Assembly (NCBI RefSeq): GCF_026616205.1
Contig: NZ_JANHGR010000001.1
Coordinates: 62,001-126,000 of the forward strand
Direction of reading: 5' to 3'
DNA: 64,000 nt
DNA from: Halolamina litorea
GTDB taxonomy: Archaea; Halobacteriota; Halobacteria; Halobacteriales; Haloferacaceae
In this document: positions 32,863-37,088 of the stretch, piece after piece
Numbering within the stretch: the stretch's first letter is position 1
Layout: every line of letters starts with the position of its first letter
The notes under the pieces: model-generated
Told to the model about the DNA's origin: nothing
Databases searched by the model: none
Seen by the model: the letters and a program-made list of their open reading frames with translations, nothing else
Program-made: the position numbers and the translations under genes

Positions 32863-33849
32863 CTACTCGTCGTCGTTCAGCGCCAGCGCCGCCAGCAGTG
32901 CTTCGAGCTGCACCTGCTCGTTCGCGCCCTCGGCGATGCGGTAGTCGGCCTCGCCGAGGCGTTCGAGCAGTCGCACGACCGCGCGGTCGTCGAGGTCGAA
33001 CTCCCACGCCGAGCGGTGGAGTTGGTCGATGATGTCGCCGCCGGCCATCCCCACGTCGGTCAGGAGCGTATCGAGGGTGGCGCGGGCCTTCGGGAAGTCG
33101 CCGGCGACGGCGGCGGCGACCATCTCCTCGACCTCCTCGGGTCGGGCGGTGGCGGTGACGGTGTAGACGGCCTCCTCGTCGACGACGCCGCCGGTCGTCG
33201 CGGCGGCTTGGAGGTTGTTGATCGCGCGCCGCATGTCGCCGTTGGCGGCGTAGACCAGGGCGTCGAGGCCCTCCTCGGTGACCTCGATCCCCTCGGCGTC
33301 GGCGATCTCCCGGACCTGCCCGGCGATGGCGTCGTCCGAGAGCGGCGAGTAGCGGAACACCGCACACCGGGACTGAATCGGGTCGATGATCTTCGAGGAG
33401 TAGTTACACGAGAGGATGAAGCGAGTGTTGTCCGAGAACTGCTCCATCGTCCGGCGGAGCGCCGACTGGGCGTCGGAGGTCAGGGAGTCGGCCTCGTCGA
33501 GGAAGATGATCCGGTAGTCGTGGCCGCCAAAGGCCGAGCGCGCGAAGTTCTTGATCCGGTCCCGGACCACGTCGATCCCACGCTCGTCGGAGGCGTTGAG
33601 TTCGAGGAAGTTCCCGCGCCAGTCGTCGCCGTATATCTCGCGGGCGATGGCTGTCGCCGTCGTCGTCTTGCCGACGCCCGCGGGGCCAGTAAAGAGCATG
33701 TGGGGCAGCTCGCCGCCCTCGACGTAGCTCTTTACACGCTCGATGGTCTCCTCTTGCCCGTGGATGTCGTCGAGGGTCTGGGGTCGGTACTTCTCGATCC
33801 AGATCTCCCGACCCGTGCTTTCGGTCTCCTCGGCGTCGGCCTCGCTCAT
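32863..33849 (-). CDS. rfcA: Replication factor C small subunit
   Basis: The 328-residue clamp-loader subunit has every RFC box: [16 protein letters not shown], Walker [10 protein letters not shown], Walker [13 protein letters not shown] in [11 protein letters not shown], and sensor-2 region MRRAINNLQ. It loads PCNA on primed DNA. It is the fully active form, in contrast to the Walker-B-altered paralogue at 20972-21994. ATG 33849 starts [13 protein letters not shown], an acidic tail typical of halophiles. It is divergent from the SAMP2 gene. Confidence 0.97.
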
Positions 33850-33961: not shown

Positions 33962-34162
33962 ATGGAGATCACCGTCGAGATCGTCGGGGAGGGCGAGCAG
34001 GTCGTCACGGTCCCCGAGGACGCCGACTACGCCGCGGTGGTCCGCGAGACCGGCTACAGCCCCCACGAGGTGACCGTGCTCGTCGACGGCTCCCCGGTGC
34101 CCGAGGACGCCCCCGTCGCCGTCGATTCAGTCCGGATCCTGCGGCTGATCGCCGGCGGCTGA
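33962..34162 (+). CDS. samp2: Ubiquitin-like small modifier protein, SAMP2 type
   Basis: The 66-residue beta-grasp protein matches SAMP2 in length and sequence plan: MEITVEIVGEGEQ, SPHEVTVLVDGSPVPED and the C-terminal LRLIAGG. The free diglycine is adenylated by UbaA and then either linked to protein lysines or used to carry sulfur for tRNA thiolation. ATG 33962 gives exactly the family length. A redoxin-acetyltransferase fusion starts 40 bases downstream on the same strand. Confidence 0.92.
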   Translation: MEITVEIVGEGEQVVTVPEDADYAAVVRETGYSPHEVTVLVDGSPVPEDAPVAVDSVRILRLIAGG

Positions 34163-34202
34163 CCGGCGTCGCCGTTTTGTACTCCCGGCTCTTCGTCGGA
34201 GT

Positions 34203-35342
34203 ATGAACAGCGGGTTCGTGCTGCCGAACGTCGGGCCCGGCCCCGACCCGCTCACCTTCGGCGATCTGGAGGCGGAGTTCGCGGTGTTGCTGTTACACCG
34301 CGATTTCTACTGCAGCGAGTGCCGACAGCAGGTCCGACGCGTGAAGAAACGCTACGACGAGTTCGAGGCCCGGAACGCCGAGGTGCTCTCGGTGCTTCCC
34401 GAGGACCGCGAGACCGCCGCCGAGTGGCAGAAACAGTACCACCTGCCGTTCCCGGTCATCGCCGACGCCGAGACCGAACTGGGCGACCACTTCGAGCAGC
34501 CGACCCGGTTCGGCCTGCTGGGCCGGCTCCACGACGTGATCGGCCGGATGCCCGCCGCCATCGTCCTCGACCTCCGCTGGTCGGACCCCATCGAGACGTT
34601 CGCCCACCGTGGGGACTCCCGAACCGATCGCCCACGGGTCGACGAGATCCTCGACGCGCTCGCCCACGCGGCGACTCTCGACGCCGGCGAGGACGCCGGA
34701 CCGAGCCCACAGATCGACCGCGTCGCGCCGCGCTCGGAGAGCAAGCGAGCCGTCGACGACGCGGACGCCCCCGAGGACACAGCGGATAGCGCTGCAGGCG
34801 ACGCTGGTGGGGAAGGGACTGACGACACGACGCCCGACGACGCCGAACCGGCGGCGGCCGACGCCGGCCCCGACGCCGACCCCGACGAGGGTGCGGAGGT
34901 GCTCGAACGCACACACCCGCCCAAGCCACAGCGCCCGCTCGCGACCCCGGACCACGTCGAACTCCCCGAGGGCATCGAACTCCGGCGCGGCGGCAACGGC
35001 GACGTGGTCGACGCGATGCGAGTGCTACAGGGGGCGCTACTTGACGTCGACGGCTCCACGGTCCGGGACGCCGCCCCGGACGGCGAAGTGCTACTGGCCG
35101 AGGACGGCGACTGGGTCGTCGGCGCGCTGGTGATGCGCGAGGGCCACATCGAGGGTGTCGCCATCCGCCGGGAGTACCGCGGCCGGGGGATCGGCGCCGC
35201 GCTCGTCGAGGCCGCCGTCGAGGACGAGGGTGGCACCGTCACCGCCGACTTCCGCGCCGGCGTCAGGGGGTTCTGGGCCGATCTTGGGTTCGAGATCGAC
35301 CGCGAAGGGAGCCGGTTCTGGGGCCGCCGAACCGTCGACTGA
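34203..35342 (+). CDS. Fusion of thioredoxin-fold (redoxin) domain and GNAT acetyltransferase
   Basis: The 379-residue product has an N-terminal redoxin-like domain (about 1-160) with the dithiol FYCSEC (C37, C40) after a hydrophobic strand (AVLLLHRDF). An acidic linker rich in Asp/Glu/Ala follows (about 165-245). Residues about 255-379 form a GNAT fold with the acetyl-CoA loop EYRGRGIGAALVEAAV. I know no characterised protein with this arrangement. Thiol chemistry plus acetylation downstream of SAMP2 suggests, without proof, a link to sulfur transfer or protein modification. Confidence 0.8.
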   Translation: MNSGFVLPNVGPGPDPLTFGDLEAEFAVLLLHRDFYCSECRQQVRRVKKRYDEFEARNAEVLSVLPEDRETAAEWQKQYHLPFPVIADAETELGDHFEQPTRFGLLGRLHDVIGRMPAAIVLDLRWSDPIETFAHRGDSRTDRPRVDEILDALAHAATLDAGEDAGPSPQIDRVAPRSESKRAVDDADAPEDTADSAAGDAGGEGTDDTTPDDAEPAAADAGPDADPDEGAEVLERTHPPKPQRPLATPDHVELPEGIELRRGGNGDVVDAMRVLQGALLDVDGSTVRDAAPDGEVLLAEDGDWVVGALVMREGHIEGVAIRREYRGRGIGAALVEAAVEDEGGTVTADFRAGVRGFWADLGFEIDREGSRFWGRRTVD

Positions 35343-35395
35343 CTGCCGCTCCGGACCTGAAAGGCTTCATGTGCCTGCCGTCTGTCAGGACCTGT

Positions 35396-35584
35396 ATGCC
35401 CCGCGATAGCTTCGTCTCGTTCCGGACGCTCGCCCTCTTCGTCCTCGTGCCGCCGCTGGCTGTCGTTGCCCTCCTCCTGCTCCCGTTGACGCTGCTCGTG
35501 CTCGCGGTCCTCTACTCCCGCGGCGCCCACGAGGCGCGACTGGAGTCCGCGACCGAACGGTCCCGCGGACCCACCGAGAACTGA
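35396..35584 (+). CDS. Short membrane protein
   Basis: The 62-residue product starts MPRDSFVSFRTLALFVLV and has one long or two close hydrophobic helices (about 9-46), then a charged tail ESATERSRGPTEN. No family recognised. It ends one base before the stop of the convergent mutase gene. Confidence 0.5.
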   Translation: MPRDSFVSFRTLALFVLVPPLAVVALLLLPLTLLVLAVLYSRGAHEARLESATERSRGPTEN

Positions 35585-35585
35585 C

Positions 35586-37004
35586 TCAGACCAGCGGCGC
35601 GACGAGCTCGCGGCCGGCGTCGAGCACCGCCTCCACCCGGGCCTGCGTCGACGCCTCGGCGTAGACCCGGAGCTTGGGCTCGGTGCCGGAGGGCCGGACG
35701 AGCAGCCACGAGCCGTCCGCACAGAGCAGTTTGAAGCCGTCGACGGTGACGGTACGCTCGACTTCCACGCCGGCCACGTCGTCGGGGATCACGTCTTCGA
35801 GTTCGTCGATGACGCGGGCTTTCTCGGAGTCGGGGCAGTCGACGCTGAGCTTGTCGGCAACGATGCCGCCGTGTTCGGCCTCGATGCGCTCGATGCGCTC
35901 GTCGTAGGGTTCGGCGGCTTCGACGGCGCAGGCGAGCAGCGCCATCAGGACGCCGTCCTTCTCCCGGACGTGCCCGCGGATCGAGAAGCCGCCGGACTCC
36001 TCGCCGCCCATCAGCGCGTCGTGCTCGCCCATCGCGTCGGCGACCCACTTGAAGCCGACCGCGGTCTCGATCACGCGCTCGCCGTGGGCCTCGGCGATGC
36101 GGTCGATCAGGAACGTCGTCGAGACGGTCCGGACGGCCGGCCCCGAGTCACCCTCCAGCAGCGCGTCGTAGGTCGCGGCGAAAAAGCGGTTCTCGCCGAG
36201 GTAGCCCGCCGGTGTCGCCACCGCGATCCGGTCGGCGTCGCCGTCGTTGGCGACCCCGATGTCGGCGTCGCCGGCGACGACGCGGTCGGTCATCGCGTGG
36301 AGGTTCGACTCGCTGGGCTCGGGGGCGCCGCCGCCGAACTCGGGGTCGTCCGCACAGCGCAGGCGAACGACGTCGGCGCCCGCGGCTTCGAGTGCGGCGT
36401 CGGTCACGCCCCGGCCAGAGCCGTGCATCGCGTCGTAGGCGACCGTCACGCCCGAGAGGTCGAGGGTCCCGTCGGCGTCGGTCGGCGCGAACCCCAGCGA
36501 GGCGACGAGGTCGGTCACGGCCTCTGTGTGGGGGGTGACGAGGTCGTCCCGGACGACGACGCCGTGTTCACCCTCCGGGAGCGACGTGGGCTCCGCGAGG
36601 TTCGCCTCGATCCGGTCGGTGACCTCCGGCATCGCCGGCGCGCCGTCGCCGGGGAAGTACTTGATGCCGTTGTACTCCGGGGGGTTGTGGGAGGCAGAGA
36701 GCACGACGGCGCCGGCACAGTCCCGGTCGACGACGGACCAGACGGCGACGGGGGTCGGGCAGTCCCGCTCGGGGAGGATGGCGTCGAAGCCGTTGGCCGT
36801 GAGCACGTCGGCGACGCTCTCGGCGAAGCCGGGGGAGGAGGCGCGGGCGTCGTAGCCGACGACCACGGGGGCGTCGGCACCGATCTCGCGCAGGTAGTCG
36901 GCGACGCCCTGGGCGACGATGCGGACGCGCTCGTCGGTGAACGTATCGAGGGTGGCCCGCCAGCCGTCGGTGCCGAAGTGGATGGCCTCGGTGGGATCGG
37001 TCAT
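35586..37004 (-). CDS. Phosphoglucomutase/phosphomannomutase family
   Basis: The 472-residue product has the four family motifs in order: phosphoserine loop VLSASHNPPEYNGIKYF, metal loop NDGDADRIAV, sugar loop GGEESGGFSIRGH and phosphate-binding RPSGTEPKLRVY. It interconverts hexose 1- and 6-phosphates (glucose, mannose or glucosamine cannot be separated by eye). ATG 37004 begins MTDPTEAIHFGTDGWR; an upstream in-frame extension of 27 codons has no similarity. Confidence 0.92.
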   Translation of the reverse strand: MTDPTEAIHFGTDGWRATLDTFTDERVRIVAQGVADYLREIGADAPVVVGYDARASSPGFAESVADVLTANGFDAILPERDCPTPVAVWSVVDRDCAGAVVLSASHNPPEYNGIKYFPGDGAPAMPEVTDRIEANLAEPTSLPEGEHGVVVRDDLVTPHTEAVTDLVASLGFAPTDADGTLDLSGVTVAYDAMHGSGRGVTDAALEAAGADVVRLRCADDPEFGGGAPEPSESNLHAMTDRVVAGDADIGVANDGDADRIAVATPAGYLGENRFFAATYDALLEGDSGPAVRTVSTTFLIDRIAEAHGERVIETAVGFKWVADAMGEHDALMGGEESGGFSIRGHVREKDGVLMALLACAVEAAEPYDERIERIEAEHGGIVADKLSVDCPDSEKARVIDELEDVIPDDVAGVEVERTVTVDGFKLLCADGSWLLVRPSGTEPKLRVYAEASTQARVEAVLDAGRELVAPLV

Positions 37005-37088
37005 GGGCGTGGGTTCGCGGGTGGGGCCCAAAAATGGGGCTGTCGCGTTCCGACCCCCTTTTGCCTGCGAGTGGCGAACGCTCACGGC

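Follow-up and report, generated by a model that had tools for sequence, protein, structure and literature searches.

The samp2 locus of Halolamina litorea

The window analysed here is a stretch of 64,000 nucleotides from the haloarchaeon Halolamina litorea (contig NZ_JANHGR010000001.1, positions 62,001 to 126,000 of the forward strand), and all coordinates of this locus are counted from its first base. It carries a gene cluster for a ubiquitin-like (Ubl) protein, a redox enzyme and an acetyltransferase, an arrangement of which relatives show natural Ubl fusions. The locus is organised as follows.

32863-33849, minus strand: rfcA, replication factor C small subunit, the divergent neighbour of samp2; a synteny marker outside the claimed module
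33962-34162, plus strand: samp2, encoding the 66 aa ubiquitin-like small archaeal modifier protein 2 (SAMP2), which has no lysine; Gly-Gly codons at 34154-34159
34163-34202, plus strand: gap of 40 bases, containing GGCGTCGCCGTTTTGTACTC at 34165-34184
34203-35342, plus strand: gene for the redoxin-GNAT fusion protein (379 aa); 40 bases separate it from the samp2 stop
34203-34676, plus strand: redoxin domain, approximately residues 1-158, of peroxiredoxin/AhpC-TSA fold (PF00578, Foldseek)
34311-34322, plus strand: CSEC motif (CxxC), C37-S-E-C40, residues 37-40
34731-34910, plus strand: acidic linker predicted to be disordered, residues 177-236 (pLDDT <50 except at residue 227)
34968-35339, plus strand: GNAT acetyltransferase domain, approximately residues 256-379 (PF13508, PF00583), with the acetyl-CoA-loop motif RGRGIG
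35586-37085, minus strand: phosphohexomutase-like gene, the convergent neighbour downstream; a synteny marker

An earlier note on this DNA had called a SAMP2 gene here, and for 33962-34162 the call is borne out by the profile scores (NCBIfam equivalog NF041919, 91.4 bits for a cut-off of 70; Pfam PF21965, 92.2 bits for a cut-off of 27) and by the diglycine end of the protein, which closes with ...RLIAGG before a TGA stop. SAMP2 is lysine-free in all six Halolamina genomes, where it ends in RLIAGG rather than RLIKGG, so that this genus cannot build SAMP2 chains through lysine as H. volcanii does.

The redoxin-GNAT fusion described in the same note is real. Residues 17-98 match AhpC-TSA (PF00578, E 3.7e-14, 53.2 bits, cut-off 26) and residues 293-364 match Acetyltransf_7 (PF13508, E 5e-8, 33.6 bits, cut-off 27), while the AlphaFold2 model of the protein has two confident domains separated by the low-confidence stretch 177-236. 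Since the same two-domain open reading frame (ORF) is found in five other Halolamina and the predicted model has two domains, a chance overlap is ruled out. Profile searches of the H. litorea genome place the gene far ahead of the runner-up for both domains (redoxin, 234 bits versus 42; GNAT, 141 versus 31); these profiles include the species' own sequence, and only the gap to the runner-up is informative. Past the fusion gene lies a 71-aa ORF (35369-35584) with no Pfam or NCBIfam match. At two Halolamina loci, a weaker second GNAT-like frame is found on the opposite strand just past the fusion gene (L298, 2617-2958; L305, 1761-2111; both minus strand).

The gap between the two genes contains a T-rich block, GGCGTCG(C/G)CGTTTTGTACTC, which is kept in all six Halolamina approximately 25-31 bases upstream of the second ATG. 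This block (GGCGTCGsCGTTTTGTACTC, loci L031-L036) persists although the gap varies in length from about 40 to 73 bases. It may be an internal or leaderless promoter or a T-run terminator, and samp2 and the fusion gene may thus be transcribed separately. At 34153-34174 a hairpin resembling a terminator was predicted, and a scan of the region for promoters of the sigma-70 type, a model ill-suited to archaea, found none.

Gene order and pairwise fusions in haloarchaea

SAMP2 is present in 290 of the 292 genomes of the class Halobacteria. The two genomes with no match are G014 and G187, the first of which was also missed by the SAMP2 profile. One genome (G263) has two SAMP2 genes with equal scores, near both ends of a contig (C1, 3326-3541 and 3939603-3939818). 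To describe the neighbourhood, we built a census of 167 SAMP2 loci, one per genome, sampling 76 of 77 genera; the draw was not random, as 20 regions were picked mostly for coordinates suggesting that a redoxin or fusion was close by, 30 loci had the top SAMP2 scores, and the remainder were picked for genus coverage. From one set of 79 matching genomes, 77 were used (G004 and G230 were omitted), and three duplicate loci (L143, L278, L280) were removed ahead of counting. The genus outside the census (g10) was examined separately through its two genomes, G066 and G231.

This GNAT gene lies within 250 bases directly downstream of SAMP2 in 90 of the 167 loci, and the order SAMP2, redoxin, GNAT is found in 40. 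The order SAMP2-(redoxin)-GNAT thus holds in 130 loci, and a single locus has a redoxin alone downstream, which brings to 41 the loci with a redoxin directly after SAMP2. Neither gene is downstream in 36 loci, 25 of which belong to the family f4. The divergent rfcA is found in 126 of the 167 loci. The co-occurrence that the earlier note had proposed to check in other genomes is therefore widespread, with the redoxin and/or this GNAT directly downstream of SAMP2 in 131 of the 167 loci. That the arrangement of the window is a one-off is ruled out by its presence in six of six Halolamina and by the class-wide module. When 196 genomes of the phylum were searched with the fusion as query, strong redoxin matches were found only in Halobacteria, the matches elsewhere being weak Ubl or generic redoxin ones, and we rejected the idea of a module extending beyond haloarchaea.

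The redoxin subfamily (E<=1e-40) gave 108 matches in 100 of the 292 genomes; being absent from the other 192, it is accessory to SAMP2. It lies directly after SAMP2 in at least 47 of the 100 redoxin-bearing genomes (the 41 of the census, plus G113, G066, G231, G098, G203 and G270), a lower bound because neighbours were checked for part of the remaining matches. By our own estimate, a target of about 250 bases on two strands of a 3-Mb genome leads one to expect well under one such adjacency by chance. Nine more loci have redoxin and GNAT adjacent to each other, yet not directly after SAMP2, which is found 1.2-1.8 kb from the pair in G166, G274 and G191, about 3-13 kb from it on the same contig in G181, G118, G144, G196 and G241, and far away in G045. 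Finally, 20 solo redoxin rows in the redoxin tree are away from both SAMP2 and GNAT.

All three possible pairs of SAMP2, redoxin and GNAT are fused somewhere, each type in different genera. The redoxin-GNAT fusion is found in the six Halolamina genomes and in none of the other census genomes, and the SAMP2-GNAT fusion in seven of seven genomes of the genus g13. The SAMP2-redoxin fusion occurs in nine of the 167 census genomes, from Halorussus (g30), g18, Haloparvum (g20) and Halopenitus (g4), as well as in G098; of the 80 named loci, 10 have it, five of them new to the count, which gives a total of 15 genomes representing four genera and one metagenome-assembled genome (MAG). A fusion was defined as a single stop-free frame, the redoxin end being incomplete in the MAG locus (L119). 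The redoxin tree has 75 rows, and the nine SAMP2-redoxin fusions of the census occupy three distinct, well-supported positions in it, as read from the tree itself; this requires either several gains or several splits. The predicted structure of a SAMP2-redoxin fusion has a mean pLDDT of 90.7, with confident domains and a junction (64-67) of low confidence.

The earlier note derived a joint role from the 40-base spacing between SAMP2 and the fusion gene. The joint role itself is well supported by the 131 loci and the three pairwise fusions, but the spacing is weak evidence when taken alone, because the adjacency of rfcA is likewise conserved and the gap holds the T-rich block. More generally, conserved rfcA synteny means that adjacency by itself proves little, and the argument rests on the fusions, keeping in mind that fusions of neighbouring genes can arise accidentally more easily than fusions of distant ones. 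Taken together, gene order and fusions give good support to a shared function of SAMP2, redoxin and GNAT in haloarchaea.

Cysteine, diglycine and acetyltransferase motifs of the partners

The structural matches listed for the fusion protein of H. litorea (Foldseek) include two ResA entries and are otherwise almost exclusively peroxiredoxins, and the 50 listed for the SAMP2-redoxin model are peroxiredoxins and their relatives, one being titled hypothetical only. When solved structures are compared by sequence profile, ResA and peroxiredoxins of the BCP type come closest; an NCBIfam SelL-related model matched the redoxin below its cut-off only. Cys40 is invariant in the 41 SAMP2-adjacent redoxins of the census, and Cys37 is kept in 36 of them, being replaced by Ala in three and by Ser in two. 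The peroxiredoxin motif PxxxTxxC has Thr where a CxxC has its first cysteine and the peroxidatic Cys where it has its second, and we take Cys40 to occupy the position of this peroxidatic cysteine. The motif is not present in the redoxin: the position of Pro is Arg (Arg33) in 40 of 41 sequences, and that of Thr is Cys, Ala or Ser. Because it lacks these two canonical residues, we call the protein peroxiredoxin-fold and not a proven peroxiredoxin. A redoxin that can lose Cys37 but must keep Cys40 would be compatible with chemistry like that of peroxiredoxins. A CxxC disulfide reductase of the ResA type, the best profile match, was considered and set aside, since Cys37 varies, Cys40 is kept and fold comparisons rank peroxiredoxins first. 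Two variants were seen among the Halorussus fusions: CRKS, with Ser at the position of Cys40, in H. salinisoli (L105, outside the 41 rows), and HSRTC, with the first Cys lost and the second kept, in L145 (G024)/L116.

No conserved acceptor lysine accompanies this cysteine: 18 of the 41 adjacent redoxins lack a lysine in the 15 residues to either side of Cys40, and in six the domain is entirely devoid of lysine. Lysine-directed attachment of SAMP2 to the redoxin thus cannot be general, and the lysine-free redoxins weaken it as a candidate role.

Gly-Gly is kept in all 167 SAMP2 loci. The frame ends there in 121 and is extended in 46, of which 11 are domain fusions and 35 have 1-24 residues past Gly-Gly with no domain fusion (e.g., L053, L054, L058, L150). 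Such tails may often mark a precursor to be trimmed. In the SAMP2-redoxin and SAMP2-GNAT fusions, ...KGG is internal but retained and is followed by a linker of variable length and sequence. The fused genomes that were checked have one SAMP2 match each (E<=0.001), and since this sole copy is fused, SAMP2 could fulfil its normal function there only after cleavage of the fusion. A JAMM gene (Prok-JAB, PF14464) was found in 20 of 20 and eight of eight genomes searched, a set that took in all ten genomes with a G handle and a SAMP2-redoxin fusion and all seven of g13. In H. volcanii, HvJAMM1 is reported to cut a linear SAMP1-MoaE fusion in vivo, exactly after Gly-Gly according to mass spectrometry (PMC4443979). 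As their Gly-Gly is internal yet conserved and the genomes encode a candidate protease, the SAMP2 fusions seem to resemble a ubiquitin precursor; this resemblance concerns relatives only, SAMP2 of the window being unfused.

The acetyl-CoA loop of GNATs has the motif R/QxxGxG/A, and in our alignment of the GNAT domain (A4) R78, G81 and G83 are invariant (R..G.G). The closest solved structures are diverse GNATs. SAMP2 is lysine-free in 17 of the 167 loci, including all six Halolamina, and GNAT is kept in all 17, which excludes the lysines of SAMP2 as its general substrate.

A possible SAMP2 module and its relation to known systems

SAMP2 is a Urm1-type protein reported to be needed in H. volcanii both for thiolation of tRNA-Lys and for isopeptide conjugation (PMC4048286). 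Several reports tie Urm1 to peroxiredoxins: conjugation of yeast Urm1 to Ahp1 depends on the peroxidatic cysteine of Ahp1 (PMC7016264), Sulfolobus Urm1 conjugates to Ahp1 when placed in yeast (PMC12645042), and the targets of Saccharolobus Urm1 include peroxiredoxins (PMC12625751). Conjugation of yeast Urm1 has also been reported to yield a cysteine persulfide via an acyl-disulfide, and Ser or Thr acceptors have been described for Urm1 (PMC12954526).

We propose, with a probability of roughly 0.4, that SAMP2, the peroxiredoxin-fold redoxin and GNAT form one functional module with the chemistry outlined here, the last two having been joined in Halolamina, and we infer that it serves tRNA thiolation or the modification of proteins. 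UbaA (E1) would convert the C-terminus of SAMP2 into a thiocarboxylate, and fused SAMP2 would first be cut after Gly-Gly by a JAMM protease. Under oxidation, Cys40 of the redoxin and the thiocarboxylate of SAMP2 would form an acyl-disulfide, from which SAMP2 would pass to a nearby amine or the sulfur would be retained as a persulfide, as for yeast Urm1 with Ahp1. By analogy with that pair, such a reaction of Cys40 under oxidation, followed by SAMP2 transfer or persulfide formation, is moderately likely; an encounter of the two through Cys40 is also the simplest interpretation. The redoxin would then be a dedicated redox switch or relay of SAMP2 rather than a general antioxidant, and as no conserved lysine lies by Cys40, it more probably acts in a relay or persulfide role than as a target to which SAMP2 is attached on lysine. 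For GNAT, our guess is that it acetylates amines (lysines or N-termini) of the same proteins, competing with or capping SAMP2 attachment.

A more specific version of this proposal, which we regard as unlikely, makes the redoxin a dedicated, peroxide-triggered E2-like factor: oxidised Cys40 would capture the thiocarboxylate of SAMP2 and hand SAMP2 to targets, leaving a persulfide, GNAT would cap competing amines, and the fusions of several genera would be JAMM-split precursors. Archaeal sampylation has, to our knowledge, no classical E2. If this version were true, JAMM would split a modifier-relay precursor in the way that eukaryotic ubiquitin is released from fusions.

The redoxin might instead act upstream of SAMP2 in tRNA thiolation, by feeding persulfide to SAMP2 at UbaA or reductively freeing it there, and have no part in conjugation. 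Conservation of one cysteine, Cys40, in all 41 sequences fits a persulfide carrier, the best profile matches among solved structures include the thiol-disulfide reductase ResA, and thiolation of tRNA-Lys in H. volcanii is reported to require SAMP2 together with NcsA (PMC4048286). But a redoxin absent from 192 of 292 genomes is not an obligatory sulfur donor, and the loss of Cys37 in five of 41 sequences ill suits a CxxC disulfide reductase; we therefore hold this reading to be somewhat improbable.

It is less probable still that the neighbourhood has no common mechanism, with rfcA, samp2, GNAT and phosphohexomutase kept together by vertical descent, the redoxin being an ordinary thiol peroxidase and the fusions neutral read-throughs. 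This would account for the divergent rfcA of 126 of the 167 loci, a gene without any functional tie to SAMP2 that we are aware of, and it agrees with the patchy distribution of the redoxin and with the T-rich block between the genes in Halolamina. It does not explain why three distinct pairwise fusions are each maintained over several species of a genus, why redoxin and GNAT are still paired in nine loci where they do not directly follow SAMP2, or why Gly-Gly, which neutral read-through would let drift, is retained in every SAMP2 fusion seen. Lastly, GNAT could be the core partner, acetylating SAMP2 itself (on lysines or the N-terminus) to control chains or turnover, with the redoxin adding redox dependence, as might be read from SAMP2-GNAT being the most conserved adjacency (90 direct and 40 via the redoxin, of 167), from its fusion in seven of seven g13 genomes and from the chains that H. 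volcanii SAMP2 is reported to form via lysine 58 (PMC4048286), but with GNAT kept by all 17 of the 167 SAMP2 loci that are lysine-free, only N-terminal acetylation could be general, and we consider this very unlikely.

Should the proposed module exist, the link between Urm1 and peroxiredoxins would extend to a partnership at the level of genes. A peroxiredoxin-fold protein fused to SAMP2 or, in Halolamina, to the other partner of SAMP2 is a concrete candidate for tying sampylation to oxidative stress. Furthermore, Ubl frames with an internal diglycine exist in haloarchaea and provide natural fusion proteins for experiment.

Part of this neighbourhood was already published in 2010. The association of SAMP2 with GNAT in Halobacteria (arCOG00535-arCOG04721) is given by Makarova and Koonin in their Table 1 (PMC2948915); that line describes the same neighbourhood and names no redoxin. 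A search of the main text of the paper for words beginning with 'redoxin' or 'thioredoxin' found none, and its section 7 does not describe fusions of SAMP2 with GNAT or redoxin. The paper mentions another peroxiredoxin, of the OsmC type, beside Ubl genes in Thermococcales. We found no report in the open-access literature of the redoxin partner or of SAMP2-redoxin or SAMP2-GNAT fusions, which makes the redoxin and the fusions the new part.

How does this set of genes compare with known systems? The redoxin shares with BCP/PrxQ and AhpC peroxiredoxins the fold, the PF00578 domain and a cysteine at the peroxidatic position, and differs from them in having a CxxC and no PxxxTxxC. MsrA belongs to a different family from the redoxin. 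In Haloferax volcanii, MsrA, a thiol redox enzyme, is reported to drive sampylation with UbaA under mild oxidant (PMC5587910); this system likewise ties a thiol redox enzyme to Ubl conjugation, but the gene beside SAMP2 here is not MsrA. The artificial SAMP1-MoaE fusion and the natural Ubl-MoaE fusions (described in PMC4443979) also have a haloarchaeal Ubl with Gly-Gly inside the fusion. The fusions reported here are natural, their Ubl is SAMP2, the partner is a redoxin or GNAT, and their cleavage is putative. The closest functional parallel is Urm1-Ahp1, which similarly combines a Urm1-type thiocarboxylate Ubl with a peroxiredoxin-fold partner bearing a redox cysteine. In contrast to that pair, the link between SAMP2 and the redoxin is a genetic one (adjacency and fusions), the redoxin has neither PxxxTxxC nor a conserved lysine near its cysteine, and the set includes a GNAT.
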